Shown: positions 14,665-36,794 of the stretch, in pieces
Layout: each line of letters begins with the position of its first letter
Position numbering within the stretch: position 1 is the stretch's first letter
Assembly: GCA_035574275.1 (NCBI GenBank)
Contig: DATLYY010000020.1
Location: 1 to 51,291, forward strand
Length of the DNA stretch: 51,291 nucleotides
Source of the DNA: Verrucomicrobiia bacterium
GTDB lineage: Bacteria; Zixibacteria; MSB-5A5; DSPP01
Direction of reading: 5' to 3'
Made by a program: the position numbers and the translations under genes
Notes under the pieces: generated by a model
What the model was told of the DNA's origin: nothing
What the model saw: the letters and a program-made list of their open reading frames with translations, nothing else
Databases searched by the model: none

Positions 14665-14738
14665 GTGGGCATAGCTCAGCCGGTTAGAGCACCAGGTTGT
14701 GGCCCTGGGGGTCGTGGGTTCGAATCCCATTGCCCACC
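14665..14738 (+). tRNA. tRNA-His (anticodon GTG)
   Basis: Cloverleaf visible by eye. The acceptor stem is GTGGGCA (14665-14671) with TGCCCAC (14731-14737). The D arm contains AGCTCAGCCGGTTAGAGC, the anticodon stem-loop is CCAGG-TTGTGGC-CCTGG with anticodon GTG, and the T arm contains GTGGGTTCGAATCCCAT. The preceding G (14664) and position-73 C (14738) can form the extra G-1:C73 pair that defines bacterial tRNA-His. Only CA follows C73, so the 3' CCA is apparently added after transcription. Confidence 0.97.
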
Positions 14739-14822: not shown

Positions 14823-14901
14823 GGCGGGTTGCCGGGCGGCAACGGCCCGGACCGAATGCCGACAGCGGCGGTCGGCGATTTGAAAAATTTCCAGAAAAGG
14901 C

Positions 14902-14966
14902 TTGACAGCCGTCTTTCCGCCGTATAAATTGTGGGTGGATTCAATGGATTATTATAATCCATTGAA
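14902..14966 (+). promoter_or_regulatory. Rrf2 gene promoter with perfect 27-bp palindromic operator
   Basis: TTGACA (14902-14907) with 17-bp spacing to TAAATT (14925-14930). From 14940 to 14966 lies a perfect palindrome, TTCAATGGATTAT / T / ATAATCCATTGAA, covering the expected start of transcription just before the Rrf2 start codon. Rrf2 regulators often repress their own genes through such dyads. The same arms at the same spacing recur at 22762-22788. Confidence 0.75.
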
Positions 14967-14984
14967 AGAGAGGATGGTGCTGAA

Positions 14985-15449
14985 ATGGCCCGGTTGCTGC
15001 CGCTTTCCAAGGGGTGCCAGTATGCCATCCGCACGGCGGCCTCTCTCACACTCGAACCGCCCGGTACGGTTTTTCCCCGGCGGGAGGTCAGCCGGCGCAC
15101 CCAAATCCCATACGCCTTCGTCTCCAAAATCCTGCAGACCCTGACCCGCGGCGGGCTTTTGCGCTCCCACCGGGGCGCCAAGCGCGGTTATTCACTGGCC
15201 CGGGCACCCAAAGGGATTTCCCTTTTGGACGTGGTGACCGCCTACGACGGTCCCTTGGGGCACGAGGGCTGCCTCTTGGACGACTACAAGCTCTGCCCGG
15301 GGGAGCGGGTCTGCGCCGTGCACCACCGGCGGATGGCCGCGCAGAAAAAAATGACCGAAAGTCTCTCTTCCGTATCCGTTTCCGAGGTGGCCCGGACGCT
15401 TTTTACCCGCCGCGGCAACGGCAACTACAAACTGGCGGAGCCCGTATGA
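14985..15449 (+). CDS. Rrf2-family Fe-S transcriptional regulator (NsrR/IscR-like)
   Basis: 154-aa Rrf2 protein: N-terminal winged helix (MARLLPLSKGCQYAIR..., recognition region near residues 28-45 and 'KILQTLTRGGLLRSHRGAKRGYSLAR'), dimerisation helix, and a cluster-binding loop with three cysteines spaced C-x7-C-x5-C (GCLLDDYKLCPGERVC). Three Cys in this loop hold a [2Fe-2S] or [4Fe-4S] cluster in IscR and NsrR, which sense cluster status or NO. Its promoter carries a perfect palindrome, so autoregulation is likely. The downstream hemerythrin and stress genes make NO, oxygen or redox sensing the best guess. Related to the second Rrf2 protein of this window (36795-37316), sharing the LPLSKGCQ start, KILQTLTR and GYSLAR motifs. 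Confidence 0.9.
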   Translation: MARLLPLSKGCQYAIRTAASLTLEPPGTVFPRREVSRRTQIPYAFVSKILQTLTRGGLLRSHRGAKRGYSLARAPKGISLLDVVTAYDGPLGHEGCLLDDYKLCPGERVCAVHHRRMAAQKKMTESLSSVSVSEVARTLFTRRGNGNYKLAEPV

Positions 15450-15628
15450 ACGTATTTTGTTTTTCCTTTGCCGGGCTTGCATCCCGCGCTTGCGATCTCC
15501 CCAAGGGGGGCCTTGACCCCGGACCGGTGCCTGCCAACTCCACCGAGTTGACCCACAGGCCATCCACCCAACCCTGCCGGGCGCCGGTCCGGGAAAATTT
15601 TAAACTTCCAACGGGGGCGGGGAATTGA
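15446..15628 (+). CDS. Possible 60-aa small protein coupled to the Rrf2 gene
   Basis: The frame starts at an ATG overlapping the Rrf2 stop (ATGA) and runs 60 codons. The product begins MNVFCFSFAGL and is rich in Pro and Cys without recognisable domains. The arrangement is what coupled genes look like. However, the DNA also contains a long stem (15518-15593), and the composition is not convincingly protein-like, so it could be an untranslated structured spacer. Low confidence as a gene. Confidence 0.3.
   Translation: MNVFCFSFAGLASRACDLPKGGLDPGPVPANSTELTHRPSTQPCRAPVRENFKLPTGAGN
15518..15593 (+). other. Long stem with internal hairpin in the Rrf2-hemerythrin spacer
   Basis: CCCGGACCGGTGCC (15518-15531) pairs with GGCGCCGGTCCGGG (15580-15593), 14 pairs including one G.T. 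Inside is a second hairpin, AACTC-CACC-GAGTT. A short CCCC-AAGG-GGGG hairpin lies just upstream. There is no T-run. The folded transcript would be a branched structure between the regulator and the stress genes, possibly a processing or stability element. Confidence 0.5.
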
Positions 15629-15644
15629 AGGGAGGAAGGCCGCC

Positions 15645-15893
15645 ATGAAAATCAAAAACTTCCGGCTGCGCAACCGGGGGCTTTATTACTTTTTCCCCGG
15701 CTGGAATACCCTGCCGTTTTTCAACCGCAAGTCCAAGAGTTTAAAGCATTCCGTTGTCTTTCCTTCCGATCACAGCCCAAACCGGTTGATTCCCCCGTCC
15801 GAAACCAAAAGCGGCCGCCGGTTCGGGTTGTGGTCGTTTGGAAAGGGAGGGTTTTTGAGGCGCTTTTTTTCCCTCAACAGGAAGACCCCATGA
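15645..15893 (+). CDS. Hypothetical basic 82-aa protein
   Basis: It starts at 15645 behind an excellent GGGAGGAAGG ribosome site and its TGA overlaps the ATG of the following hemerythrin (ATGA), good evidence that it is translated. The product is strongly basic and aromatic (starts MKIKNFRLRNRGLYYFFPGW, ends in a RRFFSLNRKTP-like tail), with no transmembrane segment or known motif. I do not recognise a family. Its position suggests co-expression with the hemerythrins. Confidence 0.55.
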   Translation: MKIKNFRLRNRGLYYFFPGWNTLPFFNRKSKSLKHSVVFPSDHSPNRLIPPSETKSGRRFGLWSFGKGGFLRRFFSLNRKTP

Positions 15894-16381
15894 AACCGAC
15901 TCATACCCTCCGGGAGCACCACGACGAGTTGCGCCTCAAGGTGCAAAACTTCGAGCAGGTTTTAGCCACGCTCCCCCACCTTTCCCAGCCGGAGCTGGAA
16001 CGGGTGGTGCGGGAGCAGGTCCTCTTTCTGCGGGAGGATGTAAAAAGCCACGCCGCCGCCGAAGAGGCCTCCTTGTATCCCGAGGTTAACGCGCTTGCGG
16101 ACAATCCCGCCTTCAGCACCACCGCCACGATGGAGATCGACCATGAATATATCGCCGGCTACATCGAGCGGCTGGCGGAGATGCGCCTGGACATATCCCC
16201 GAGAAGGGTTGCCGAGTTCCAGCGGGTGGGATGGGAGCTGGTGGCGATTTTGAAGCTGCATTTTGACAAGGAGGAGCGGGTCTATCTGCCGCTTTTGGAT
16301 TCGCGCCTCACGGAAAAAGAGGTGCAAACACGCATCGTGGAAAAAATGGAAACCTTTGAAGAGGCCCGATGGTCGGAGTAG
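15890..16381 (+). CDS. Hemerythrin HHE-domain protein (copy 1)
   Basis: 163-aa four-helix cation-binding protein. The diiron ligand pattern is visible: H-x-x-x-[HE] in the first helix (REHHDEL), HAAAEEASLYPEV in the second, IDHEYIAGYIE in the third and LHFDKEERVYLPLLD in the fourth. Hemerythrin-like proteins bind oxygen or NO, or help protect and repair Fe-S proteins. The frame extends upstream to a GTG at 15830, but the ATG at 15890 matches copy 2 exactly (MKPTHTLRE) and overlaps the upstream gene. Probably a duplicate of the next gene. Confidence 0.9.
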   Translation: MKPTHTLREHHDELRLKVQNFEQVLATLPHLSQPELERVVREQVLFLREDVKSHAAAEEASLYPEVNALADNPAFSTTATMEIDHEYIAGYIERLAEMRLDISPRRVAEFQRVGWELVAILKLHFDKEERVYLPLLDSRLTEKEVQTRIVEKMETFEEARWSE

Positions 16382-16403
16382 GGGCAAGGAAGGAGCGAAT
16401 GCA

Positions 16404-16994
16404 ATGAAACCGACCCACACGCTACGAGAAGAACATGACCTGTTGATGAAAAAAATCCAAGAATTTGAGGAGGTTTTGGACGCGCTCCCCCGGGTGCCGC
16501 AGGAGGACTTGAAGCGAGTGGTGGGGCGGGAAATCGATTTCCTTCAAAGGGAGATAAAGGATCATGCCGCCGCCGAGGAAAAATACCTCTACACGGAAAT
16601 CGATTACCTCTGTGGTAACAGCCGGGGTACCGGGGTTAAGACCAGCGCCACGATGAAAATCGACCACGAATACATCGCCGCCTATATCGACCGGCTTGCG
16701 GAGATGGCCCGCGGCATCCGTTCCGAAACCATTCCGGAGTTTCAGCGCGCCGGGTGGGAACTGGTGGCGATTCTGAAACTGCATTTCGACAAGGAGGAGC
16801 AGGTCTACTTGTCGCTTTTGGATTCCCGCTTTACGGAAGAGGAAGTGGAGCGGCGGATCGTGCGGCGGATGGAACAATTTGAAAAAGAGAGCGCGTACGC
16901 CCTCCCGGCTGAAAGAAAACTCGTTCTAAAGAATAAAAGGCAAGCCGCGGGAAGCGGCGTACCGGAAACCGGATTCGAAAGAATCCAAAAATAA
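16404..16994 (+). CDS. Hemerythrin HHE-domain protein (copy 2)
   Basis: 196-aa paralogue of the preceding gene with the same MKPTHTLRE start and the same ligand helices (HAAAEEKYLYTEI, IDHEYIAAYIDRL, LHFDKEEQVYLSLLD), plus a basic C-terminal tail of about 30 residues. AAGGAG precedes the ATG. The two copies are adjacent and highly similar, so this is a tandem duplication. A third, more distant hemerythrin lies at 39137. Confidence 0.9.
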   Translation: MKPTHTLREEHDLLMKKIQEFEEVLDALPRVPQEDLKRVVGREIDFLQREIKDHAAAEEKYLYTEIDYLCGNSRGTGVKTSATMKIDHEYIAAYIDRLAEMARGIRSETIPEFQRAGWELVAILKLHFDKEEQVYLSLLDSRFTEEEVERRIVRRMEQFEKESAYALPAERKLVLKNKRQAAGSGVPETGFERIQK

Positions 16995-17003
16995 GGAGGA
17001 GTC

Positions 17004-17450
17004 ATGACCAAATTAATGCTGCAGCGCGAGCCGTTCGACTACGAGCTCGATTTTCCCCGGGAGGTGGAACGGTTTTTCTCCCGTCCCCTTTCCCGCTTCC
17101 GGGAATTTCTCTCGGAGGAATGGTTTCCTTTCGTGGACATCGCCGAGACCAAAGACGACATCGTCGTCAAGGCCGAAGTCCCCGGGATGACCAAGGAGGA
17201 TATCTCCATTTCCCTTTCAGACAACGTCTTGACCTTGCGGGGGGAAAAGAAAAAGGACAAGGAAGAAAAGGGAAAAACCTTCTACCGGATGGAGCGGAGC
17301 TGGGGCTCGTTTGCCCGTTCCTTCACCCTGCCGGCGGCCGTAGTACCGGGCAAGGTGAAAGCCGTCTATAAAGACGGGGTACTGGAAATCACCCTGCCCA
17401 AATCGGAACAGGTCAAATCCAAGGAGATTCCGATTCTGGTGGAGGATTAG
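17004..17450 (+). CDS. Small heat-shock protein, Hsp20/alpha-crystallin family
   Basis: 148-aa ATP-independent holdase. The alpha-crystallin domain runs from about residue 45 (FVDIAETKDDIVVKAEVPGM) to 140, with the conserved 'GVLEITLPK' strand. An N-terminal Phe/Arg-rich arm and an 'IPIL' C-terminal I-x-I motif needed for oligomer assembly are both present. AAGGAGGAG lies at good spacing before the ATG. It is embedded in the stress island. Confidence 0.94.
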   Translation: MTKLMLQREPFDYELDFPREVERFFSRPLSRFREFLSEEWFPFVDIAETKDDIVVKAEVPGMTKEDISISLSDNVLTLRGEKKKDKEEKGKTFYRMERSWGSFARSFTLPAAVVPGKVKAVYKDGVLEITLPKSEQVKSKEIPILVED

Positions 17451-17461
17451 CCCGCTCCAAA

Positions 17462-17494
17462 TTCCCCGCCCCGGCGGTCCGCCGGGGCGGGGAA
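17462..17494. repeat. Perfect 33-bp GC-rich palindrome
   Basis: TTCCCCGCCCCGGCGG (17462-17477) and its exact complement (17479-17494) flank a single T. It sits between hsp20 and the first CBS gene, followed by AAGGAAAGGAGG, the ribosome site of the CBS gene. In RNA it would form a very stable hairpin next to that site. There is no T-run, so not a classical terminator. Confidence 0.7.
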
Positions 17495-17512
17495 AAGGAA
17501 AGGAGGACTGGT

Positions 17513-17983
17513 ATGAAAGTCCGTGACATAATGACCAAGGCTCCGGCCTTCTGCCATCCGGATTCGAACCTGGCGGCGGCGGCGGAAAAAATGTGGTCCC
17601 ACGACTGCGGCATACTCCCGGTGGTGGATGATGAACTGGGGGTTGTGGGGGTGATTACCGACCGGGATATCTGCATCGCTTTGGGAACGAAGGACCGGAG
17701 GGCCTCCTCGGTTTCCGTGCGGGAGGTCATGACCCCCAAGGTTCATATTTGCGCTCCCGATGATGACATCCATACCGCTCTGAAGGTGATGGAAAAAGGA
17801 AGGGTGCGCCGGCTGCCGGTCGTGAACCGGGATGGAAAACTGATGGGGATTTTATCGATGGACGACATCGTCTTGGTGGCGGAGGTGAGGGTCGGCCCGA
17901 AAATGCCCGAGCTGGCCTGCGAGGAGGTGGTGGAAGCGTACAAAGAAATCCGGATACGGCCGTTTCCGGCCGTGCCGGCATAA
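17513..17983 (+). CDS. Tandem CBS-domain protein (copy 1)
   Basis: 156 aa with two complete CBS motifs: MKVRDIMT...LPVVDDELGVVGVITDRD and VREVMTPKV...RRLPVVNRDGKLMGILS. Such stand-alone CBS pairs bind adenine nucleotides and act as energy or redox sensors; the mycobacterial dormancy protein Hrp1 has this architecture. GGAAAGGAGG precedes the ATG. Paralogous to the proteins at 18315 and 19174, so the module was triplicated. Confidence 0.92.
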   Translation: MKVRDIMTKAPAFCHPDSNLAAAAEKMWSHDCGILPVVDDELGVVGVITDRDICIALGTKDRRASSVSVREVMTPKVHICAPDDDIHTALKVMEKGRVRRLPVVNRDGKLMGILSMDDIVLVAEVRVGPKMPELACEEVVEAYKEIRIRPFPAVPA

Positions 17984-17997
17984 CGGGGGTTGAGCAA

Positions 17998-18082
17998 TGG
18001 CCGCCACACTGCCCCTGCAGGCAGGTTTCGGAAAACGGGGGTTTTCACCCGGTAGCGGGGCAGACCCCCGTTCTGGCGGCCA
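17998..18082 (+). ncRNA. Candidate structured RNA element, copy 1 (three-way junction)
   Basis: Outer stem TGGCCGCC (17998-18005) with GGCGGCCA (18075-18082). The first internal hairpin is CTGCC-CCTGCA-GGCAG. A linker, GTTTCGGAA, leads to a second internal stem AACGGGGGT/ACCCCCGTT. The same plan occurs at 19663-19749 with compensating base changes. An overlapping 37-codon frame (ATG 17997 to TAA 18110) exists but has no ribosome site, so I favour RNA over protein. Confidence 0.45.
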
Positions 18083-18099
18083 AATGGAGGAAGTGGACG

Positions 18100-18303
18100 A
18101 TGAATTTTAAGAAATTCTTGATTGACTTCGCGTTCACGTTTGTCGTGGTTTTCGCTGTTACTGTGGCGGTTACCTCGATTTGGAACGTAATCTTCCACGG
18201 CTATGCCACACCGGATTGGAAAACGGCCTTTCAACTGGCGATCATCCTTGGAATTGTCATTCCCTGGACAAAATCACTGCGGCAGCCGGAAAAAACGGCT
18301 TGA
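18100..18303 (+). CDS. Small two-helix membrane protein
   Basis: 67-aa hydrophobic protein with helices at about residues 7-30 and 43-57 and a basic tail. It begins MNFKKFLIDF behind AATGGAGGAAG. No enzymatic motif; function unknown. It lies between two CBS paralogues and probably belongs to the stress operon. Confidence 0.75.
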   Translation: MNFKKFLIDFAFTFVVVFAVTVAVTSIWNVIFHGYATPDWKTAFQLAIILGIVIPWTKSLRQPEKTA

Positions 18304-18314
18304 GAGGAGGACAG

Positions 18315-18617
18315 ATGAAAGTCCGTGATATTATGGTGGAGACCCCCAGGTACTGTCGGCCCGACGCCAACTTGATTACAGCCGCGGAAACGATGTCCGT
18401 CGGCAATTGCAGTTTGCTCCCTGTCGTGGACCAGGAGGGAAAAGTGGTCGGAATAATTACCGACCGGGACATTTGCATGACTTTGGCGGGAAAAAACCAA
18501 AAGCCCTCGGACCTCCGGGTTCGGGACGCAATGTCCGGCCGGGTGCGTCGTCTACCGGTGGTCGGCCGGGATGGAAGCTCGGTCGGGATGATTTCACTGG
18601 GCGACGTCAGCGTGTAA
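18315..18617 (+). CDS. CBS-domain protein with internally deleted second CBS motif (copy 2)
   Basis: 100-aa paralogue of the flanking CBS proteins. The first CBS motif is intact (MKVRDIMVETPRYCRPDAN ... LPVVDQEGKVVGIITDRD). The second runs VRDAMSG straight into RVRRLPVVGRDG; about 21 residues present in copies 1 and 3 (the APDDDIHTAL helix region) are missing in frame, and the C-terminal extension is absent. The nucleotide pocket of the second motif is probably lost. GAGAGGAGG precedes the ATG at 18315. It could be a decaying duplicate or a specialised single-site variant. Confidence 0.85.
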   Translation: MKVRDIMVETPRYCRPDANLITAAETMSVGNCSLLPVVDQEGKVVGIITDRDICMTLAGKNQKPSDLRVRDAMSGRVRRLPVVGRDGSSVGMISLGDVSV

Positions 18618-18635
18618 CCGGAAGGGAGGAGGAAA

Positions 18636-19172
18636 ATGCCGACCAAACATATTCTGGTGCCTTTGGACGGTTCGGAAGCCGCCGAGGCGGCTTTGCCGGT
18701 TGCTGCCCGTCTGGCGGGTATGGTGGGTGCCGACATCACGCTTTTGGGAGTAGTTCAGCCGTTGGAAGGGTTCATAAGAACCCGGCATCGGGAAGTTTGC
18801 GTGGACAGTGAGTGGCCAAAACGGGTGCGCAGTGCGGTCAGTTACCTGCTTTCGGTTGCCGAGCGGCCGATTTGGAAGGGCCTTCTCATCCGGGCGGCGG
18901 TGGAAATCGGAGAAATCAACGAGGCTGTGACCGGCTACGTCCGCGCCCATTTCATCGATTTTATCATCTGGCCCCCCGTGCCTCTGGGAGAAGCAACTGA
19001 ATTCCGAACCGAAGGAGGCCGTTGGCAAAGAGCGCAGCCCGGGTCTCCGAACGGAGTTCCATCAAGAACGGGTTTCCAATTTTTGAAGGGCCGCCCCCGT
19101 AATGTCGAAGAATCGCCGTGGATTCTGGAGAATTCCACGGAAAAAACTAAACCCCAATTGACAGGAGGTTAA
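18636..19172 (+). CDS. Universal stress protein-like, C-terminus degenerate
   Basis: The N-terminal half is clearly UspA-like (KHILVPLDGSEAAEAALPVAARLAG, then helix and strand up to about residue 105). After 'VRAHFIDFIIWPPVPLG' the ATP-binding G-x2-G-x9-G(S/T) signature seen in the intact relative at 22106 (STHGRSGLGRWAFGS) is absent. About 65 residues of low-complexity, non-Usp sequence follow, and that DNA includes a CCGTGG/CCACGG hairpin (19116-19140). Most likely a Usp that lost its C-terminal motif by rearrangement, although the frame is open. GGAAGGGAGGAGG precedes the ATG. Confidence 0.7.
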   Translation: MPTKHILVPLDGSEAAEAALPVAARLAGMVGADITLLGVVQPLEGFIRTRHREVCVDSEWPKRVRSAVSYLLSVAERPIWKGLLIRAAVEIGEINEAVTGYVRAHFIDFIIWPPVPLGEATEFRTEGGRWQRAQPGSPNGVPSRTGFQFLKGRPRNVEESPWILENSTEKTKPQLTGG

Positions 19173-19173
19173 T

Positions 19174-19650
19174 ATGAAAGTCCGTGACATTATGGTGAAC
19201 ACCCCCAAATACTGCCGTCCGGATGCCAACCTGGCCTCGGCGGTGGAATTGATGTGGGTGAACGATTGCGGGTTCTTGCCGGTCGTCGATTTCGACAACC
19301 GGGTGACTGGCGTAATCACCGACAGGGATATCGCCATCGCTTTGGGAACGAGAAACCAACGGGCCTCCGATGTTTTAGTCCGCGACGTCATGACCAAGCG
19401 GGTGTACGGCTGCGCCCCGGATGACGACATTCATACGGCCTTGCAATCGATGGAAAAACATCAGGTGCGCCGGCTGCCGGTGGTGAACCCGGACGGAAAA
19501 CTGGCGGGAATTTTGTCCATCGGCGATCTCACCCTGCACGCTGAAAAGAAGGAAGGGAAAAAAATTCCCGATCTTTCCTCCGACGAGGTGGTGGAAACCT
19601 ACCAGGGTATCCGCGTGCGGCAGTTGACCGAGCAGGTGGCGCAGCTGTAG
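19174..19650 (+). CDS. Tandem CBS-domain protein (copy 3)
   Basis: 158 aa with two complete CBS motifs (MKVRDIMVNTPKYC...GVITDRDIAIALGT and VRDVMTKRVYGCAPDDDIHTAL...RRLPVVNPDGKLAGILS) and the same C-terminal 'DEVVE.Y..IR.R' tail as copy 1. It starts behind ACAGGAGG and lies 1 bp after the degenerate Usp frame. Predicted adenine-nucleotide-binding stress sensor. A structured element similar to that after copy 1 follows its stop. Confidence 0.92.
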   Translation: MKVRDIMVNTPKYCRPDANLASAVELMWVNDCGFLPVVDFDNRVTGVITDRDIAIALGTRNQRASDVLVRDVMTKRVYGCAPDDDIHTALQSMEKHQVRRLPVVNPDGKLAGILSIGDLTLHAEKKEGKKIPDLSSDEVVETYQGIRVRQLTEQVAQL

Positions 19651-19661
19651 GGAGGACGATT

Positions 19662-19787
19662 ATGGCCGCCCAACGGAACAACGTTCCGGTCTCGGAAAAG
19701 CGGGGGCCGGTCGCGGCGTACACGCGGCCTTCCCCCGCTCCGGCGGCCAATTTTCCACTTCTCTCGGATGGATTGGAGCAAGAATGA
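19662..19787 (+). CDS. Possible 41-aa small protein overlapping the structured element
   Basis: An ATG 12 bp after the CBS stop follows GGGAGG and opens a 41-codon frame. Its TGA overlaps the start of the next gene (ATGA). The product begins MAAQRNNVPVSEKRG and ends LLSDGLEQE; no known motif. The ribosome site and coupling favour translation. The covarying stems in the same DNA favour an RNA role. Both could be true, as for a leader peptide. Confidence 0.35.
   Translation: MAAQRNNVPVSEKRGPVAAYTRPSPAPAANFPLLSDGLEQE
19663..19749 (+). ncRNA. Candidate structured RNA element, copy 2 (three-way junction)
   Basis: Outer stem TGGCCGCC (19663-19670) with GGCGGCCA (19742-19749), identical to copy 1. 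The first hairpin, CGGAAC-AAC-GTTCCG, is fully different in sequence but equivalent in position. The linker GTCTCGGAA is nearly conserved. The second stem AGCGGGGG/CCCCCGCT shows a compensating A-T to G-C change against copy 1. It precedes the phosphoribosyltransferase gene. Confidence 0.45.
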
Positions 19788-20497
19788 AAACTGATGAACG
19801 CGCTGCCCATTTCTCGCCGCCATCCCGACGGGAGTTCCGGGCGGGGATGCAAAGCAGCATCACCCGCTTTGCGGACCGAGCCGATGCCGGGCGGAAGCTG
19901 GCCGAAGCGCTGAGCAAATATAAAGGGGATGATGTAGTGGTTTTGGCCCTTCCGCGCGGCGGGGTGCCGATCGGCTTGGAAGTGGCCAACTACTTGAATG
20001 CTCCGTTGGATTTGGTCATCGCCCGTAAAATCGGGCACCCTTACAGCCCGGAATATGCCGTGGCCGCCGTTTCCGAGGAAGGGGAGGTGCTGTACAACGA
20101 GAAGGAAAAAAGAAACCTTGAGCCGGCCTGGTTTGAGACCCAAATAAAAGAGAAACTGGAGGAAGCCCGCCGGCGTCGCCGGCTTTACTTGGGGGAGCGC
20201 AAGCCCGTTTCCGTGGAGGGAAAAATTGCCATCGTCGTTGACGACGGCATCGCCACCGGGCTTACGTTACGCGTTTCGCTCCTCGCGGTCAAAAATCGCC
20301 GTCCGGCCAAGCTGGTCGTGGCAGTGCCCGTCGCACCTCTTGATACGGTGGCCCGTTTGAAAAAAGAGGTGGACGACGTGGTGGTGGTGCATCTGCCCGA
20401 CAATTTTCTGGGCGCGATAGGTGCCTACTACGACGATTTCTCACAGGTGAGCGACGAGGAGGTCATAGCCATGATGGAAGGGGTGAGCGTGGGATGA
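19784..20497 (+). CDS. Phosphoribosyltransferase-domain protein
   Basis: 237-aa type I phosphoribosyltransferase-like protein. The PRPP-binding loop is clear (IAIVVDDGIATGLT, about 147-160), with an earlier 'VVLALPRGGVPIG' motif (about 51-63). This family pairs with alpha/beta hydrolases in stress and dormancy clusters (compare mycobacterial Rv0571c, which fuses the two). Here the two are separate genes three places apart. The substrate is unknown. GGAG precedes the ATG, and it overlaps the next gene by ATGA. Confidence 0.88.
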   Translation: MKTDERAAHFSPPSRREFRAGMQSSITRFADRADAGRKLAEALSKYKGDDVVVLALPRGGVPIGLEVANYLNAPLDLVIARKIGHPYSPEYAVAAVSEEGEVLYNEKEKRNLEPAWFETQIKEKLEEARRRRRLYLGERKPVSVEGKIAIVVDDGIATGLTLRVSLLAVKNRRPAKLVVAVPVAPLDTVARLKKEVDDVVVVHLPDNFLGAIGAYYDDFSQVSDEEVIAMMEGVSVG

Positions 20498-21375
20498 TTC
20501 TGTTTGCGTATCCCGAGTTTTCCGGACTGGCCCGCGAGCTTTACGCCGGCTGGGGCCTGCAGGCGGGGGACTTTGCGGTAAGCCGTTTCGCCAATCAGGA
20601 ACTGGAGGTGTCCATTGATGCCGACGTGACCGGAAGCGATTGTCTGATTTTGGGTTCGGTGGCCCCTCCGGATGAGCGGCTGTTGTCGATTCTTTTGCTG
20701 GCCCATACCATCAAACACCAGCGTTCAGGCGAACTCACCCTGCTTCTGCCCTACTTGGCCTATACCCGGCAGGATAAAATAAAACCGAAACGAAGTTTGG
20801 CTGCCCGCTGGATGGGAGCGCTCTTGCAAGCCAGCGGGGTGGACCGGGTGATCACCGTCGATATCCACAGCCATCGCGCAGAGAGCCTTCTTTCCATACC
20901 CGTCGTTTCCCTTTCGCCGGCCCCCCTTTTTTCCAAAATCATCACCGAGCAGGCCCTTCCCGACGCCACCTTGGTAGCCCCGGATGAAGGGGCGGTTTTC
21001 CGCTGCGAGGCCTTGCGCAAGGAATTGGGTTTGAGGATGCCCCTGGCTTACTTCACCAAAACCCGGACGGCGCAAGGGGTGACCTCGGAACTCCAGGGGG
21101 AGGTGGGGGAATTCGCCGTCGTTGTGGATGATATTTTGGACACCGGGGAAACTTTGGTCGCCTGCTGTCAGACCCTCCAAGAGGCGGGCGCAAAGGAAAT
21201 TCTGGTGTTGGTTACCCACGGCATCTTTACTGGAAACCTCTGGACAAAGCTCTGGGGACTTGGAGTGAAACGGATTTACGTGACCGACACGATCCCGCAA
21301 ATTCCGCCCGATCGCCGCATTAAAAAAGTTTCCGTGGCTCCTCTTATTCGAGACCATTTATTACAGCCCGCATGA
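20494..21375 (+). CDS. Ribose-phosphate pyrophosphokinase homologue (PRPP synthetase-like)
   Basis: 293 aa with the PRPP synthetase fold: an N-terminal half with 'FANQELEVSI' and 'LLLPYLAYTRQDK', the metal loop VDIHSHR (family DxHxxQ-type), and the PRPP loop VVDDILDTGET (about 208-218). It would make PRPP from ribose-5-phosphate and ATP. In this setting it may supply the neighbouring phosphoribosyltransferase rather than be the housekeeping enzyme, since it is shorter than typical PrsA (about 310-320 aa) and its core is diverged. Translationally coupled on both sides. Confidence 0.87.
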   Translation: MILFAYPEFSGLARELYAGWGLQAGDFAVSRFANQELEVSIDADVTGSDCLILGSVAPPDERLLSILLLAHTIKHQRSGELTLLLPYLAYTRQDKIKPKRSLAARWMGALLQASGVDRVITVDIHSHRAESLLSIPVVSLSPAPLFSKIITEQALPDATLVAPDEGAVFRCEALRKELGLRMPLAYFTKTRTAQGVTSELQGEVGEFAVVVDDILDTGETLVACCQTLQEAGAKEILVLVTHGIFTGNLWTKLWGLGVKRIYVTDTIPQIPPDRRIKKVSVAPLIRDHLLQPA

Positions 21376-22103
21376 AAAAAATAGCCCCCCTTGTAGAGCA
21401 AAATCTGGTTCATATCCCCATCGATGCCGACGTCTTGGAAGGGGAGCTTGTACTTCCGTCCCACTCCCTCGGGGTGGTTCTCTTCGCCCACGGCAGCGGC
21501 AGCAGCCGGAAGAGTCCGCGCAACTGCTACGTGGCCGACATCCTGCGGCAATCCGGAATTGGAACGCTTCTTTTTGACCTGCTGACGGAAAAGGAGGACC
21601 AAGTTTATGCGGCCCGTTTCGATATCGAGCTGCTTACCCGGCGGCTGGTTGCCGCCACCCGGTGGGTGATGGAGGAATCGGCAGCCAAGGAATTGCCCGT
21701 CGGATATTTCGGCGCCAGCACCGGCGCGGCGGCCGCATTACGGGCCGCCGCCCGCCTCGGCCCGACCATTAAGGCCGTGGTTTCGCGCGGTGGACGACCG
21801 GACTTGGCGTTTGCCGTTTTGGAGCGGGTGACGGCGGCCACCCTGCTGGTTGTGGGCGGATATGACCACGAGGTTATACGGCTGAACCGAAAAGCGTACG
21901 AACGGCTCTCGGCTGTAAAGGATATCGTGGTGGTTCCTGGGGCGACCCATTTGTTTGAGGAGCCTGGGACGCTCGAAGAGGTGGCCCGGCTGGCAGCGGA
22001 GTGGTTTTTAAAACATCTGCAAAAGGATGAAGGGGACAAAAAAAGCTCCATTCAGGTTTCTGACGGACGAACAGAGATCAAAACCACAAAATTTTGGAGA
22101 TAG
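21372..22103 (+). CDS. Alpha/beta hydrolase (dienelactone hydrolase-like)
   Basis: 243-aa alpha/beta hydrolase. An oxyanion-hole HGSGSSRKSPRN stretch (about 40-51), the nucleophile elbow GASTGAAA (Ser about 118), an acid near GGYDHEV and the catalytic His in GATHLFEEPG are all visible. Homologues occur beside phosphoribosyltransferases in stress regulons. The substrate is unknown. The ATG overlaps the PRPP synthetase stop (ATGA). Confidence 0.87.
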   Translation: MKKIAPLVEQNLVHIPIDADVLEGELVLPSHSLGVVLFAHGSGSSRKSPRNCYVADILRQSGIGTLLFDLLTEKEDQVYAARFDIELLTRRLVAATRWVMEESAAKELPVGYFGASTGAAAALRAAARLGPTIKAVVSRGGRPDLAFAVLERVTAATLLVVGGYDHEVIRLNRKAYERLSAVKDIVVVPGATHLFEEPGTLEEVARLAAEWFLKHLQKDEGDKKSSIQVSDGRTEIKTTKFWR

Positions 22104-22105
22104 AG

Positions 22106-22564
22106 ATGAAAACAAACGTCTTATACCGGCATATCCTCGTTCCCTTGGACGGCTCAAAGCTGGCAGAGGCGGCCCTTAAACAAGCCCTTCCGCTGACCCG
22201 GTCCCCGGGAACGCGCGTAACGTTTATTGAAGCGGTCTGGCCGATCATCGACGTTTTAAACACCGGCACGCAGGTGGCCGCCGTGGAGCGCATCCGTAAA
22301 AACGAAGCCCAAAAGTATCTTGATTCGGTGGCCCGCCGATCGGAGTGGAAGAGATTGAAAACCCAGGCCGTGGTAAAAGTCGGCCCGGCGGCCGACGTCA
22401 TCCTCGACTACGCCCGCTCCAAACGGGCCGATCTCATCGTGATGAGCACGCACGGCCGCTCGGGGCTTGGGCGCTGGGCCTTCGGCAGCATCGCCGACAA
22501 GGTCCTGCACGGCGCCACTTGCCCGGTGCTTTTAGTGCGGGCCTCCGGCAAAAGAAAACGCTGA
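22106..22564 (+). CDS. Universal stress protein, ATP-binding type
   Basis: 152-aa UspA-domain protein with both halves intact: 'HILVPLDGSKLAEAALKQAL' at the N-terminus and 'ADLIVMSTHGRSGLGRWAFGSIADKVLHGATCPVLLVR' at the C-terminus, carrying the complete G-x2-G-x9-G(S) nucleotide motif. I chose the ATG at 22106 (GGAG upstream) rather than the upstream TTG. Last gene of the stress island; about 245 bp of non-coding DNA follow. Confidence 0.92.
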   Translation: MKTNVLYRHILVPLDGSKLAEAALKQALPLTRSPGTRVTFIEAVWPIIDVLNTGTQVAAVERIRKNEAQKYLDSVARRSEWKRLKTQAVVKVGPAADVILDYARSKRADLIVMSTHGRSGLGRWAFGSIADKVLHGATCPVLLVRASGKRKR

Positions 22565-22723
22565 TGGATTGCCCTTAAGGGTCGGTTTTCACCGGGGAGC
22601 GTTTTCGCCAGCCGCACGGTTTTCCGTCTTCCATACATTTGCCTGAATCTCTTCCGTTTAATCCAATTCCGACCCGAACGGTCGGCATTTAACTGGAAAT
22701 CGAAAGAAAAGAGTAAAAAAAGC

Positions 22724-22788
22724 TTGACAGGCCGCCGATACTTAAATAGATTCTTTCTGGACTCAATGGATAAAGTGAGTCCATTGAA
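22724..22788 (+). promoter_or_regulatory. SDR gene promoter with second copy of the Rrf2 operator
   Basis: TTGACA (22724-22729), 17-bp spacer, TAGATT (22747-22752). At 22762-22788 is a 27-bp dyad with arms TCAATGGA (22763-22770) and TCCATTGA (22780-22787). Arm sequence and spacing equal those of the perfect palindrome at 14940-14966; only the centre differs. It occupies the same place relative to the promoter. The rest of 22565-22723 holds no gene I can see. Confidence 0.75.
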
Positions 22789-22809: not shown

Positions 22810-22866
22810 ATGACAGAATTTCTATCCCGGACCGCGGGCTGTCATTATGTCCGTCCGGCGGGCTAA
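22810..22866 (+). CDS. Possible 18-aa leader peptide ahead of the SDR gene
   Basis: An ATG 11 nt after AAAGGAG opens an 18-codon frame beginning MTEFLSRTAGCHY and ending at 22866, overlapping the SDR start region in another frame. The only good ribosome site in the region serves this frame, not the SDR ATG. It may be a translational coupling leader. Too short to confirm. Confidence 0.35.
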   Translation: MTEFLSRTAGCHYVRPAG

Positions 22867-23635
22867 GGTGGGACGCGTGGATGGAAAGGTAGCCGTTGTC
22901 ACCGGCGGTTCGTTGGGAATCGGCCGGGCGGCCTGTTTGCTTCTGGCCCGGCAGGGAGCGGCGGTGGCCGTTACAGATGTTTTGGACAGCGAAGGCCGGG
23001 CGCTGGTGGAGGAAATCAAACGCTCCAAGGGGAAGGCCCAATTCTGGCATCTGGACGTTTCGAAGGAATCCGAGGTTGAAAAAGTTTTTGCTGATGTTGT
23101 CAAAACTTTTGGAAAGATCGACATTCTGGTCAACAACGCCGGCATCGCCGGGGTCAGCAAGCCGACCCACGAAATCACGGAAGGGGAGTGGGATCGCGTG
23201 CAGGCGGTCAACGTGAAAGGAGCGTTTTTTTGCACCAAGCACGCGGTCCCGTTCCTGCAAAAAGCGGGGGGCGGCAGCATCATCAATCTCTCCTCCATTT
23301 ACGGTATCATCAGCGCCGCGGACGTTCCCCCGTACCACGCCTCCAAAGGGGCTTTGCGCTCCATGACCAAAACGGACGCTTTGTTTTACGCCAAGGATAA
23401 AATCCGTGTCAACTCCATCCACCCCGGTTTCATCTGGACGCCGATGGTGGAAAAATACCTGCAATCGACCGGCAACGTGGAGGAAGGGCGGAAAATGATT
23501 GATTCGTTGCATCCGCTCGGCCACATCGGCGAGCCGGACGACATTGCTTTCGGGATTCTCTATCTGGCCTCCGAGGAATCCAAATTCGTCACTGGTAGCG
23601 AGCTGGTGATAGATGGGGGATACACGGCCCGATGA
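22847..23635 (+). CDS. Short-chain dehydrogenase/reductase
   Basis: 262-aa classical SDR: NAD(P)-binding VVTGGSLGIGRAA (about 16-28), NNAG (about 90), catalytic Ser in LSSIYG and YHASK (about 160-166), and the 'HPGFIWTPM' and C-terminal 'SKFVTGSELVIDGGYTAR' family features. Substrate not predictable. ATG 22847 has no clear ribosome site and a GTG at 22868 would give the standard start VGRVDGKVAVV; either is possible. The promoter carries the Rrf2-type operator, so the gene belongs to the same regulon as the stress island. Confidence 0.9.
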   Translation: MSVRRAKVGRVDGKVAVVTGGSLGIGRAACLLLARQGAAVAVTDVLDSEGRALVEEIKRSKGKAQFWHLDVSKESEVEKVFADVVKTFGKIDILVNNAGIAGVSKPTHEITEGEWDRVQAVNVKGAFFCTKHAVPFLQKAGGGSIINLSSIYGIISAADVPPYHASKGALRSMTKTDALFYAKDKIRVNSIHPGFIWTPMVEKYLQSTGNVEEGRKMIDSLHPLGHIGEPDDIAFGILYLASEESKFVTGSELVIDGGYTAR

Positions 23636-23662: not shown

Positions 23663-23691
23663 TTGACAGAAAGATGATACAAATCATATTT
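23663..23691 (+). promoter_or_regulatory. Promoter of the decaheme operon with FNR-like dyad
   Basis: TTGACA (23663-23668), 17-bp spacer and ATATTT (23686-23691). Between them lies ATGAT-ACAA-ATCAT (23674-23687), whose core TGAT-N4-ATCA matches the CRP/FNR-family consensus centre. A site between -35 and -10 would favour repression. About 120 bp of untranslated leader follow before the decaheme gene. Confidence 0.5.
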
Positions 23692-23810
23692 TCAGTTGAC
23701 CTGATGGAACGTTCCAGTCCGCATAGGAAGAGGGGCCTCAGGAAACGGGCGGCAGACCCGTCACTCGCTAATTTTCACCACACACATCTATCGGAAGACA
23801 GGAGGGCGTC

Positions 23811-24722
23811 ATGACAAAATTGAAATGGTTTTCTTCCGGCTTTTTTGCGCTGGCCGCCGTGGCGTTCGTCGCCTGGGGGCTTTCCGCCTCCGACCCCAAG
23901 GAGGTAAAGGGGGAATACGTCGGCAGCGAAAAATGCATGGAATGCCATGCGGAAGAGATAGCGGCCGACTACCAGCATACCGTTCACTTCGGCGTGGAGC
24001 AAAACGCCCAGACGGAGTTGGAAAAAAACATGTGCGAGGCCTGCCACGGCCCCGGCTCGGCCCACATCGAAGAGCCGGAGGACAAGGGCCGCCACTGGAC
24101 CTTTAAAAAGGAGGATGGCGAGAGTTCCGAGGACTGGAACGCCGTCTGTCTGCAGTGTCACGAAAAGGGAGCACAGACCCATTTCACCGGCTCGATGCAC
24201 GAGGGGCGCGGGGTGGCCTGCGTGGACTGCCACACGGTGATGAAAAACGTATCCCCGGAAAACCAGCTGGCCAAGCCGACCGCGCCGGAGGTCTGCTTTG
24301 AATGCCATAAAATGAAAAAAATGCAGTTCCAAAAATCCTCCCACATGCCCCTGATGGAGGGGAAGCTGGCCTGCGTGGACTGCCACAACCCGCACGGTTC
24401 CCCCAACCCGGCGATGCTGATTGAAAATTCGCCGAACGAAAACTGTTTAAAATGCCATACGGAAAAAGCGGGGCCGATGCTCTGGGAGCATCCGCCGGTG
24501 CGGGAAAACTGCCTTTCCTGCCACAACCCGCACGGCTCGAACCACGACAACCTGCTCGTGGTCAAGCGTCCGCGGCTCTGCCAGCGCTGCCATATCGAGT
24601 CGCGGCATCCCACCACGCCATATTCGGAGTCCCGGCTGCACGCCATTGACCGGGGCTGTGTAAACTGCCATTCGCAAATTCACGGCTCAAACCATCCCTC
24701 CGGGATGATGTTTCTGCGATAG
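23811..24722 (+). CDS. Decaheme cytochrome c, DmsE/MtrA/PioA-like
   Basis: 303-aa periplasmic cytochrome with an N-terminal signal sequence and ten CxxCH motifs (CMECH, CEACH, CLQCH, CVDCH, CFECH, CVDCH, CLKCH, CLSCH, CQRCH, CVNCH). Length, heme number and 'CHNPHGS' spacing match the DmsE/MtrA family, whose members fill the lumen of an outer-membrane barrel and carry electrons across the outer membrane. The barrel gene follows 10 bp downstream. ACAGGAGGG precedes the ATG. Confidence 0.92.
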   Translation: MTKLKWFSSGFFALAAVAFVAWGLSASDPKEVKGEYVGSEKCMECHAEEIAADYQHTVHFGVEQNAQTELEKNMCEACHGPGSAHIEEPEDKGRHWTFKKEDGESSEDWNAVCLQCHEKGAQTHFTGSMHEGRGVACVDCHTVMKNVSPENQLAKPTAPEVCFECHKMKKMQFQKSSHMPLMEGKLACVDCHNPHGSPNPAMLIENSPNENCLKCHTEKAGPMLWEHPPVRENCLSCHNPHGSNHDNLLVVKRPRLCQRCHIESRHPTTPYSESRLHAIDRGCVNCHSQIHGSNHPSGMMFLR

Positions 24723-24732
24723 GGAGGCGGAG

Positions 24733-26943
24733 ATGAAAAAGCTCATTCTGACCATACTGACGGCCGGCTGGGCGGCCTTCACTTTCGCCCAGGAAGGAAC
24801 CACGACGGCGGGAAGCGGGGCCTACCAAACCTCCGGCTACTTTGAAGGTGGTTTCTGGCAGGTATTGAAAAACCCCGGCTCGGCCAAGTTTCAGGAATAC
24901 CGGCGGGTAGAGGAGCATATGCTCTTGAACCGTTTCGGCTTCGATTTGACGAAAGGGAAATACTATCTCAATGTTTCTGCGCGCGAGCTGGGAAAAACCG
25001 ACCAGGGAGCCAAGGCGAGCTTCGGCTTGGTACGCAAATGGAAAAACGAGGTCACCTGGTCGCAGACCCCGCACCTTTATTCCACTTCCACCAGGCAGTT
25101 TTACCTGAATGCGGGGGGAGGGGTTTTCACGCTCCCCGACAGCGTCAAGGCCGCCTTGTCAACGGGCAGCACCGCGGCGGTCACCGCCAAGCTGCAAAGC
25201 TACCTTTCCGGAGCGCAGCCCTTCGATTTGGCGGCCCGGCGCAACACGGGTGGAGCCGTCTCCGAGTGGAAACCCCGGTCGGACGTAACCGTGAAAGCCG
25301 GTTACATCAATGAACGAAAACAGGGGGGAAAGCAGTTCGGCACGGCCATCCAATTCAATGCGGTGGAACTGCCGGAGCCGATCAATTATGAAACCCACCG
25401 TTTTTCCGCCTCCGCCGAGCTGGCCCGCAAGAACTATTCGGCCGCCCTGGAATATTCCGGGCGGATTTTCAACAACAAAACCGAAACCTTGATTCGGGAC
25501 AATGCCTTCCGGGCCAGACCCGATTCGGTTGGCGCCCCCCGACGGATACGGATGGCCCTTTATCCGGACAACACGGCCCACAACTTCACCTTCACGGGCA
25601 CCTACAATCTCCCGTATAAAACCCGCAGCGTGGCGGTCGTAAGCTACGGTATCGCCAAGCAAAACGAAGATTTTTTGCCGCACACCATCAATTCCGCCAT
25701 CTCCGACACCGGCTTGGTCATCCGCCGGCGGGAGGACGGCACGATTGTCACCAGCTTGGAAGGGGAATTCAAGACCTTTGTGTTCAATTACCAGATTTCC
25801 TCCCGGCCGATGGAAAAACTGACGTTAAAGGGGAAGGCCCGTTTCTATGAATTCGCCAACGAAACTCCCGAGCTCTTGTTCACCAGCTATGTGGGTTACG
25901 ACGCCAGTTTGAGCACCCGCGGACGGGCCAGCCTGCCGTACGAATACATCAAAAGAAGCGGCGGCGTGGAGGCCGGCTATGAAATCATCCCGCAGGCCCG
26001 CGCATCGGTCGGTTACCTGCGCGAAGGAATCAGCCGCAACCACCGGGAAGTAGAGGCCTCCAACGAGGATATCTACACCGGCACTTTGGACCTGCGCCCC
26101 GCCAACTGGGTCACCGTACGCAGTTCCTACGTTCATTCGGAAAGGAAGTCGGACACCGCCAAATACCATCCCCATTTCTTCGAGGAATCGTTTCCCGAAG
26201 GGGAGGCGGTTGTCAACGTGGCAATGTCCTTGGACGAACTGCGCCGCTTCGACGTGTATAACCGGCGGCGGGATAAAGTGGAGTTGACCAGCCGGCTTTC
26301 CCCCATCGACAAAGTGGACGTCGGCTTAAACGTCAGCTTCGCCCAGGATGATTATGCTGCCGCCTACGGCTTGCAGAAGTTCTGGAATCTGGGTTGGGGG
26401 GTCGATTTTGCCTATACTCCGGTCCCCCGACTAACCCTTTTCGGCGACGTCGGACAGGATAACAACCGCGGGGAGACGGAATCCCGCTACCGCCCGGTTT
26501 ATTCCAACGTAGGGTACGACTCGCTCAACAACGACTGGAGCGGCGCTCTGCGGGACAAGTTTGAAAACTACGGCTTCGGTTTTTCGGCCGACGTCTGGCC
26601 CAAAAAGCTGACGTGGGGCGGAAATTACGGTTTTTCTTACAGCAAAAGCGAGTTGATTTCCACCTTTGTCCCAGGCGGGAATCCAAGCGGCGATGCGGTG
26701 AGCTTCCCCAGCGTTTATTACAAGCTTCACCGCCTCGGTTCGCAGCTTTCTTACCGTATCACCAGTCAAACGGCCCTTAAATTTGACTACTGGTACGAAA
26801 AGTATATCCAGACCGACTGGGCCATCGACCCGGTAGAGCCCTTCACGAATGTCACCGGCGCCACCCGCTCCATTTTTCTGGGCGCCCAGGTTCCGGACTA
26901 CGAAGCCCACGTTATGGCCTTGAAATTGAGTTACGCGTTTTAG
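24733..26943 (+). CDS. Outer-membrane beta-barrel, MtrB/PioB-like
   Basis: 736-aa protein with a cleavable signal peptide (ending near FAQEG). A long run of alternating amphipathic strands is full of Tyr/Arg/Gly and ends with ALKLSYAF, a C-terminal aromatic barrel signal. Immediately downstream of an MtrA-type decaheme cytochrome, this is the expected sheath of a trans-outer-membrane electron conduit. I see no Cys pair near the N-terminus such as MtrB of Shewanella has. No extracellular MtrC-type multiheme lipoprotein lies in the window. Confidence 0.87.
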   Translation: MKKLILTILTAGWAAFTFAQEGTTTAGSGAYQTSGYFEGGFWQVLKNPGSAKFQEYRRVEEHMLLNRFGFDLTKGKYYLNVSARELGKTDQGAKASFGLVRKWKNEVTWSQTPHLYSTSTRQFYLNAGGGVFTLPDSVKAALSTGSTAAVTAKLQSYLSGAQPFDLAARRNTGGAVSEWKPRSDVTVKAGYINERKQGGKQFGTAIQFNAVELPEPINYETHRFSASAELARKNYSAALEYSGRIFNNKTETLIRDNAFRARPDSVGAPRRIRMALYPDNTAHNFTFTGTYNLPYKTRSVAVVSYGIAKQNEDFLPHTINSAISDTGLVIRRREDGTIVTSLEGEFKTFVFNYQISSRPMEKLTLKGKARFYEFANETPELLFTSYVGYDASLSTRGRASLPYEYIKRSGGVEAGYEIIPQARASVGYLREGISRNHREVEASNEDIYTGTLDLRPANWVTVRSSYVHSERKSDTAKYHPHFFEESFPEGEAVVNVAMSLDELRRFDVYNRRRDKVELTSRLSPIDKVDVGLNVSFAQDDYAAAYGLQKFWNLGWGVDFAYTPVPRLTLFGDVGQDNNRGETESRYRPVYSNVGYDSLNNDWSGALRDKFENYGFGFSADVWPKKLTWGGNYGFSYSKSELISTFVPGGNPSGDAVSFPSVYYKLHRLGSQLSYRITSQTALKFDYWYEKYIQTDWAIDPVEPFTNVTGATRSIFLGAQVPDYEAHVMALKLSYAF

Positions 26944-26978
26944 GCGGGGGTATAAACTGGAAAGGAGAGAGTGAGACA

Positions 26979-27386
26979 ATGAAAAATAAAAGAATCATCG
27001 TCGCCGTTGCCGGCTTGGCGCTTTTGGCGGCCGGAGTTTGGGCGCAGGAGGGCAAGACCGTTTCCTCCGGCAAGGAGGTGTACACCAAGAAATGCGCCTC
27101 CTGCCACGGCAAGCAGGGGGAAGGAGTGGCCAAAATGGCCACGATGTTGAAAGCCACCATCCGCAACTGGGGTGAAGTGGCGGCAACTGCCGATACTTTG
27201 GCGGCCTGGAAAAAAATCACCACGGACGGAAAAGGGAAAATGCCCGCCTTCAAGGCAAAGCTTTCCGCTGCGGAGATGGACTCGGTGCTGGCATACGTGA
27301 AAAGTTTGACCAAGCCCGGCAAGCCGGCCAAGTCCGAGGGTGCCGAAGGAAGTGCCAAAGCGGACAGCGCCAAAGGGGCCAAATAA
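26979..27386 (+). CDS. Periplasmic monoheme cytochrome c
   Basis: 135-aa class I cytochrome with a signal peptide (ending near VWAQEG), one CASCHGKQGEG heme site (about residue 40) and a candidate distal Met in 'GKGKMPAF'. An Ala/Lys-rich tail follows. It is the last gene of the decaheme/barrel group and lies before the Rieske/cytochrome b genes, so it may shuttle electrons between the two. GGAAAGGAGAG precedes the ATG. Confidence 0.9.
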   Translation: MKNKRIIVAVAGLALLAAGVWAQEGKTVSSGKEVYTKKCASCHGKQGEGVAKMATMLKATIRNWGEVAATADTLAAWKKITTDGKGKMPAFKAKLSAAEMDSVLAYVKSLTKPGKPAKSEGAEGSAKADSAKGAK

Positions 27387-27405
27387 GTGTAACACCAGTA
27401 CTTCG

Positions 27406-27436
27406 ACCGGCCGGAGCAGGATGGGCTCCGGCCGGT
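27406..27436 (+). other. Strong 12-bp hairpin after the monoheme cytochrome gene
   Basis: ACCGGCCGGAGC (27406-27417) pairs with GCTCCGGCCGGT (27425-27436) over a 7-nt loop. No T-run follows. It may separate expression of the decaheme group from the Rieske/b group by pausing or RNA processing. Confidence 0.55.
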
Positions 27437-27500
27437 TCAATGTTCCAGGCCGGCAGGACGTTCGCCGGCGCGCGGCCTAACGATTGCAGGAAAAGGGCAG

Positions 27501-27944
27501 ATGTTGGACAAACAGAACCGCCGGGAGTTTTTGAACTTTTTTCTCGGAGGGGGTTTTCTGGCCCTCCTCGGGGCCGTTTTTTATCCGGTTTTGCGCTTCG
27601 TGATGCCGCCGGCCAAGTCGGAAGCGTTCGGCGGCTCGGTGACGGCGGCCAAAACGGGGGAACTCCCCCCCAACTCCGGCAAGATTTTTCCCCTTGGCGA
27701 CAGCCCGGGGATTCTGGTGCACACCGCCGAAGGGGAGTATAAGGCCTTCTCGGCCGTCTGCACCCATCTTTCCTGCACCGTGCAGTACCGCTCCGATTTG
27801 GGCCACATCTGGTGCGCCTGTCACAACGGCCACTATGATTTGACCGGCAAAAACGTCGCCGGCCCGCCCCCCCGTCCGCTCACCGAATATCCGGTCACCC
27901 TATCGGGCGACAACGTAATCGTCAGCCCCAGCCGCGGGGCGTAG
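27501..27944 (+). CDS. Rieske iron-sulfur protein
   Basis: 147-aa Rieske subunit: an N-terminal [12 protein letters not shown] leader with one helix (Tat-like but with an imperfect motif), then the [2Fe-2S] fold with ligands in CTHLSC and CACHNGHYD (about 91-96 and 110-118). It oxidises quinol together with the cytochrome b encoded 1 bp downstream. '[23 protein letters not shown]' resembles b6f/bc Rieske proteins of Gram-negative and anammox-type complexes. No cytochrome c1 gene follows; multiheme cytochromes take its place. Confidence 0.93.
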
Positions 27945-27945
27945 G

Positions 27946-36724: not shown

Positions 36725-36781
36725 TTGACAAGCCCGCCGATACTCCTATATTAGAGGAGTCAGAGGAGTGGGCAACTCCTC
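36725..36781 (+). promoter_or_regulatory. Promoter and paired operators of the rrf2-nirK operon
   Basis: TTGACA (36725-36730), 16-bp spacer and TATATT (36747-36752). Dyad 1, ACTCCT-ATATTAG-AGGAGT (36742-36760), covers the -10 box. Dyad 2, GAGGAGT-GGGCA-ACTCCTC (36763-36781), follows at once. The shared GGAGT half-sites in alternating orientation suggest cooperative binding by the Rrf2 protein encoded just downstream. The half-site differs from that of the first Rrf2 operator. Confidence 0.7.
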
Positions 36782-36794
36782 CGAAGAGATTGAA

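Follow-up and report, generated by a model that had tools for sequence, protein, structure and literature searches.

The two putative operators and their promoters

The window analysed here is positions 1 to 51,291 (51,291 nucleotides, nt) of contig DATLYY010000020.1 (assembly GCA_035574275.1, GTDB lineage Zixibacteria), whose genes include two for Rrf2-type regulators, rrf2a and rrf2b (Table 1). An inverted repeat, or dyad, with the same arms is found both at the rrf2a promoter and at the promoter of a unit that begins with an SDR-family oxidoreductase gene and continues into multiheme-cytochrome genes, and we describe the evidence that these are likely to be operators of the Rrf2a protein, together with a second dyad (dyad 2) situated further upstream. 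Positions elsewhere are given as contig:position. A sister genome (G001), whose Rrf2a is 85% identical, provides the comparison within the genus, which covers two species.

Both sites have the form TCAATGGA-N9-TCCATTGA, with 8-bp arms and equal spacing. A preliminary description of this DNA had reported a perfect 27-bp palindrome before rrf2a, and this is present (14940-14966, the operator with its flanks). It had also reported a 27-bp dyad before the SDR gene; there the identical arms and N9 spacing stand, but the centre is asymmetric, so that palindromy is confined to the arms. The equal placement that it gave both dyads after TTGACA-17-TANATT promoters is borne out, as the gap between the -10 hexamer and the 27-mer is 9 nt in each case and both operators occupy the same interval relative to the transcription start (+1, which is predicted throughout and set 7 nt past the -10 hexamer). 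The SDR operator is the same 25-mer as a site at C77:49935, ahead of a 2-oxoacid:ferredoxin oxidoreductase.

Table 1. Genes, promoters and putative operators in the window; start-relative positions are predicted
Feature	Position	Strand	Remarks
Dyad 2, rrf2a promoter	14859..14875		CCGACAGCGGCGGTCGG; 1 mismatch to CCGACC-N5-GGTCGG; centre -70
rrf2a promoter	14902..14930	+	TTGACA-17-TAAATT
Class I operator (dyad 1), rrf2a promoter	14941..14965	+	TCAATGGATTATTATAATCCATTGA; +5..+29; conserved at G001 C13:65614
rrf2a, Rrf2 regulator	14985..15449	+	154 aa; recognition helix PYAFVSKILQ; cysteines 96/104/110
Genes after rrf2a	15890..22564	+	Two hemerythrin-domain proteins, Hsp20, CBS proteins, universal stress proteins, phosphoribosyltransferase, PRPP-synthetase-like, DLH-like hydrolase
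Dyad 2, SDR promoter	22669..22685		CCGACCCGAACGGTCGG; perfect; centre -82, about one helical turn beyond -70
SDR-unit promoter	22724..22752	+	TTGACA-17-TAGATT
Class I operator, SDR promoter	22763..22787	+	TCAATGGATAAAGTGAGTCCATTGA; +5..+29; arms identical to rrf2a copy
SDR-family oxidoreductase	22847..23635	+	First gene past second operator
Additional promoter before decaheme gene	23663..23692	+	Followed by conserved CTGATGGAACG..CCGCATAGGAAGAG; at most a degenerate operator
Respiratory genes	23811..30299	+	DmsE/MtrA-type decaheme cytochrome (23811), MtrB/PioB outer-membrane protein (24733), cytochrome c (26979), Rieske (27501), cytochrome b6-like (27946), multiheme cytochrome (29007)
Class III operator, rrf2b promoter	36760..36784	+	TCAGAGGAGTGGGCAACTCCTCCGA; TTGACA at 36725; +2..+26; conserved at G001 C13:75832
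rrf2b, second Rrf2 paralog	36795..37241	+	Helix PTLFLAKILQ; NirK-like copper protein next at 37313

The spacers of the SDR, C77 and rrf2b promoters and of the sister rrf2a and rrf2b promoters have GCCGATA in common, at about equal position (window promoters 14902-14930, 22724-22752 and 36725-36752). A short open reading frame with a good ribosome site (22810-22866; MTEFLSRTAGCHYVRPAG) begins between the operator and the SDR start, which it overlaps, and the C77 site is likewise followed by a short open reading frame before the first enzyme gene.

Genome-wide recurrence and predicted targets

Pattern searches of the 2.51 Mb genome find three perfect copies of the operator (14941, 22763 and C77:49935) where 0.0003 are expected from base composition, and shuffles of the window, with up to three mismatches allowed, give a mean of 0.17 matches as against the two exact ones observed. 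These figures agree with the earlier view that chance identity is very unlikely, but the two window copies do not count as independent matches, given the likeness over 115 bp between the SDR promoter and the sister rrf2a promoter. Copies with two mismatches lie at C9:39412 and C26:37224, and with up to three mismatches 13 places match, while the reversed pattern matches at 2. A TTGACA promoter immediately precedes each of the five sites with 0-2 mismatches, and none of the five lies in a called gene, so the scatter through coding DNA that would speak against an operator is not seen, and matches upstream of respiratory genes, as the preliminary description had predicted, are. The predicted regulon is genome-wide, and larger than the local one claimed there, as the operator is also present on contigs C77, C9 and C26.

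A pattern joining the promoter to a looser dyad gives 21 matches in the same genome (4 for the reversed control), and several patterns combined leave about 15 credible sites (13-15) with one layout, between +2 and +31. The weakest are that of rrf2c, a further paralog, and C31:11655, for which a downstream operon is not established; on the minus strand from C31:11655 the weak operator is followed by a long untranslated stretch without an Rfam match and then by a lipoprotein-like gene. Sites at C64:59659 and C22:103051, and a list of one-mismatch candidates, were dropped as chance or coding matches.

The arms fall into classes separated by one or two bases in each half-site: AATGGA (class I, at rrf2a), AGTGGA/TCTACT (class II, at rrf2d) and AGAGGA (class III, at rrf2b). 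AATGGA is found on both sides in all five class I sites and in the sister's. Class I sites precede rrf2a with the stress genes behind it; SDR, then the MtrA/MtrB, cytochrome c, Rieske, cytochrome b6-like and multiheme genes; a 2-oxoacid:ferredoxin oxidoreductase set (C77:50118 onward); and, as near copies, a giant multiheme-cytochrome operon (site C9:39412; operon C9:39.9-46.7 kb) and a gene at a contig end (C26:37224). The C9 operon is led by a gene for a 1036-aa cytochrome with 22 doubled CXXCH stretches (C9:39980-43087), followed by those for an NHL-repeat protein, a multiheme cytochrome and a 538-aa protein without a Pfam match; the last is likely to be an outer-membrane protein, and the operon a possible electron conduit. 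Class II sites precede rrf2d with CcmE-like and CcmF genes, with a divergent multiheme cytochrome gene opposite; another multiheme cytochrome (C9:48989); a beta-eliminating lyase and then a ferredoxin-oxidoreductase set (C9:30219); a UDP-sugar dehydrogenase (C17); and two genes on C75. The class III site precedes rrf2b with a NirK-like copper protein (below the model cut-off). The targets cohere around multiheme cytochromes, CcmE/CcmF, MtrAB, Rieske/cytochrome b, ferredoxin oxidoreductases and the NirK-like protein.

Rrf2a and its paralogs

Rrf2a matches the Rrf2 family models PF02082 (Pfam; E 2.8e-27, 95.9 bits, cut-off 30) and TIGR00738 (90.3 bits, cut-off 73.3). It fails the equivalog models for NsrR (19.9 bits, cut-off 182) and IscR (48.1 bits, cut-off 207.6), and its neighbours are respiratory and stress genes rather than an isc context. 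The AlphaFold2 model (mean predicted local distance difference test score 81.8) has a winged helix-turn-helix and a long dimerisation helix (111-129), and the best 38 PDB matches found with Foldseek (all E <= 0.001) are all of Rrf2 type, with RsrR, CymR, IscR and NsrR first; sequence and fold both point to RsrR as the best solved relative. C96, C104 and C110 (C-x7-C-x5-C) are invariant across the paralogs, which suggests that Rrf2a carries an iron-sulphur (Fe-S) cluster and thus that it might be released from DNA by oxidant, nitric oxide (NO) or Fe-S shortage.

The genome holds five Rrf2 genes, of which four are close paralogs (39-79% identical), with rrf2b, rrf2c (C9:54728) and rrf2d (C9:53277, minus strand) 50%, 79% and 54% identical respectively to rrf2a. 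Each of the four has a dyad at its own promoter in the same layout but with differing arms, that of rrf2c being an intermediate site, TCGGTGGA-N9-TCTATTAA. The four paralogs are probably products of duplication, each with its own graded putative operator at the same place in the promoter.

Rrf2a residues Y43, A44 and S47 align with IscR L39, S40 and E43, and base-specific contacts in IscR are made by S40, E43 and Q44 (PMC9973013, PMC9338935). Residues 43, 44 and 47 are YA-S in the class I proteins of both species and in Rrf2c; at these positions Rrf2d has AS-S, and Rrf2b, in either species, has TL-A. The wing arginine/lysine region is retained. The recognition-helix change thus tracks operator class among these few sequences, which fits a shift of specificity after duplication. 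Among 28 Rrf2 homologs from other genera of the phylum (29-40% identical), the upstream regions have no shared dyad, and their dyads are not clearly above shuffles.

Gene order and the sister species

The sister genome has only two sites of the operator type, at the rrf2a (C13:65614) and rrf2b (C13:75832) promoters, so that the own-promoter operators at 14941 and 36760 are conserved in both species. In that genome a one-CXXCH porin-like gene comes next after rrf2a, and the MtrAB-Rieske-cytochrome b genes come straight after it; the window has the stress cassette, which is missing from the same place in the sister, and SDR between rrf2a and MtrAB, and its MtrAB genes sit behind the second operator. 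Over 115 bp upstream the SDR promoter resembles the sister rrf2a promoter (z 12.7), the window and sister rrf2a promoters are alike with z 7.9, and the two window promoters with z 5.8. From the first of these likenesses, the simplest reading is that the SDR promoter is probably a duplicated promoter-operator module, and the arm identity of the two window sites may reflect descent plus selection rather than convergence.

A promoter scan finds no further strong plus-strand promoter between rrf2a and 22724. We take the hemerythrin/Hsp20/CBS/universal stress/phosphoribosyltransferase/DLH cassette to resemble the mycobacterial DosR dormancy gene set. The additional promoter before the decaheme gene and the conserved sequence behind it (23663-23735) are kept in the sister, possibly as a degenerate operator or as a site for another regulator.

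A second dyad upstream of the promoters

Dyad 2 (CCGACC-N5-GGTCGG) lies upstream of the -35 hexamer at the rrf2a, SDR and C77 promoters and at the sister rrf2a and rrf2b promoters, with its centre at exactly -70 in four of them and at -82 at SDR. The expectation for the 17 regions scanned is about 0.009 matches. The five centre bases vary in every copy, yet 59 of 60 arm bases are retained; this conservation argues for constraint, though the promoters are partly related by descent. The window rrf2b promoter has only a degenerate remnant (4 mismatches). With one mismatch allowed, genome-wide counts are barely above the control (25 vs 17; 30 vs 27), so that the motif alone is not specific and the argument rests on its exact position. 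A role as a terminator was set aside, as both window copies lie outside the terminator-like sites found.

Two further genes, the fifth Rrf2 gene (C42:49577; sister C32:13264) and sufB (C7:2190), have the core CCGAC-N7-GTCGG across their +1, and the Rrf2 regulator RisR of Myxococcus xanthus binds a GAC-N7-GTC core at isc and suf (PMC9973013). We infer that the fifth Rrf2 is a regulator of Fe-S assembly, and that this protein, or a different one sharing its site, is active at -70/-82 too, positions which, one helical turn apart, would suit an activator. Control of these promoters is probably not by one regulator alone; the one-operator control first described had overlooked this dyad.

Discussion

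We consider it likely, from the sequence comparisons above, that both window dyads are operators of a Fe-S Rrf2 repressor encoded at 14985, one of four paralogs. A Rrf2a dimer would bind the 25-27 bp dyad just past +1, centred at about +17. As a dimer at +2 to +30 would block RNA polymerase, from a position like that of O1 in lac, repression with autoregulation is the most likely sign, and we infer repression by Rrf2a from this position. The genes repressed would be rrf2a with the stress cassette, the SDR-MtrAB-Rieske-cytochrome b genes, the 2-oxoacid:ferredoxin oxidoreductase and the giant multiheme-cytochrome operon. Alteration of the cluster by oxidant, NO or iron/Fe-S limitation would release Rrf2a and allow these redox genes to be expressed, and NO is a plausible signal given the YtfE-like hemerythrins and NirK/Nrf genes nearby. 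Dyad 2, with its core also at the fifth Rrf2 and sufB promoters, would provide a second input from the upstream side. In naming the 14985 protein as the regulator the preliminary description was right that it is a real Rrf2, whose own-promoter dyad is kept in the sister, but it is one of four close paralogs.

Several observations weigh against this proposal. The cysteine spacing is unlike that of IscR (C92/C98/C104), which makes the cluster uncertain; WD40-like and sialidase-like proteins and a sugar dehydrogenase among the targets fit the respiratory theme poorly; palindromy is poor in some class II sites, at 5-7 of 13 pairs; and, as the sister holds just two sites, most targets lack conservation in the sequence comparison. 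Two further points, concerning the transcript, are taken up with the RNA explanation below.

A possible, though distinctly less likely, explanation is that the whole paralog set (Rrf2a and Rrf2c, perhaps as heterodimers) controls both units, rather than the 14985 protein in particular. Rrf2c, which is 79% identical and has the same recognition helix, may bind the sites of Rrf2a, its own promoter carries an intermediate site, and the classes are separated by small steps. However, class I sites are sharp, the site of Rrf2c itself is not class I, and in the sister, where no Rrf2c was found by search, Rrf2a has a class I site alone.

It is improbable that the dyad acts instead in RNA, as a 5'-terminal stem-loop stabilising or regulating the mRNA, with the Rrf2 genes carrying it by shared ancestry. 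The dyad does lie wholly downstream of the predicted +1 and would form 5' mRNA stem-loops, three of the four promoters tested give folding z scores of -2.9, -1.8 and -2.1, and unpaired positions show a weak excess of G-T over A-C (21 to 8). Without duplicates, however, that excess is 18 to 8 (p 0.08), and several members fold poorly (z +0.2 for rrf2d on C9, in a shortened test stretch; 3-6 broken pairs in others). No Rfam family matches the dyad, only a tRNA (14665-14738) having turned up, and it is the arm sequence itself, not pairing alone, that is conserved and shifts with the recognition helix of the regulator. Least likely of all is that duplication of one promoter left both sites behind without a regulatory role, for although the SDR and sister rrf2a promoters are alike well past the dyad and the SDR and C77 sites are one 25-mer, the arms stay fixed while spacer and flanks diverge, the unrelated promoters at C9:39412 and C26:37224 have the same arms with other centres, and paralog promoters carry paralog-specific arms.

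Extending the Rrf2a repressor model, we tentatively suggest a two-tier circuit, in which duplication would have divided one operator into graded versions, each specific to one of four Fe-S paralogs and all at a fixed place past +1, and the Fe-S-assembly Rrf2 would read dyad 2 on these promoters at a position like that of a class I activator (-70, or -82), such that extracellular-electron-transfer cytochromes and anaerobic enzymes might be made only when Fe-S supply and redox signal both permit. Rrf2 regulators are usually described singly. One genome in which paralogs and operators form graded series, with helix changes to match, would be a natural test of base choice by Rrf2 proteins, which is partly open in the NsrR, IscR and RsrR structures, and it offers a way into the regulation of multiheme-cytochrome respiration in a lineage not yet cultured; within the set of papers searched, none mentions Zixibacteria together with Rrf2.

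Among known systems, NsrR of Escherichia coli and Streptomyces coelicolor resembles Rrf2a in its Rrf2 fold, three-cysteine region, dyad operator of about 23 bp and targeting of its own promoter, and YtfE/RIC-like hemerythrins and a NirK-like gene are neighbours here. However, the sites described here (TCAATGGAT-N7-ATCCATTGA and relatives) do not have the NsrR consensus gATGyAT-N5-ATrCATc (PMC1274295). RsrR of Streptomyces venezuelae, the nearest solved relative, is likewise an autoregulated Rrf2, from which Rrf2a differs in cysteine spacing and operator; the RsrR wing is without the usual arginine (PMC9338935). Dyad 2 resembles the sites of the IscR/RisR type in M. xanthus, with the RisR core at the sufB and fifth-Rrf2 promoters. 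RisR represses isc and suf from the promoter, at sites with the flanks T(t/g)GAC..GTCC (PMC9973013), whereas here the flanks are CCGAC..GTCGG and there are extra copies at -70/-82 of other promoters. A further parallel is the founding member, Rrf2 of Desulfovibrio vulgaris, which is cited as a repressor of the hmc electron-transport operon (PMC1274295) and is likewise a regulator tied to a multiheme-cytochrome transmembrane redox operon. Compared by description rather than by sequence, the system described here differs from it in having four paralogs, separate graded operators and genome-wide targets.

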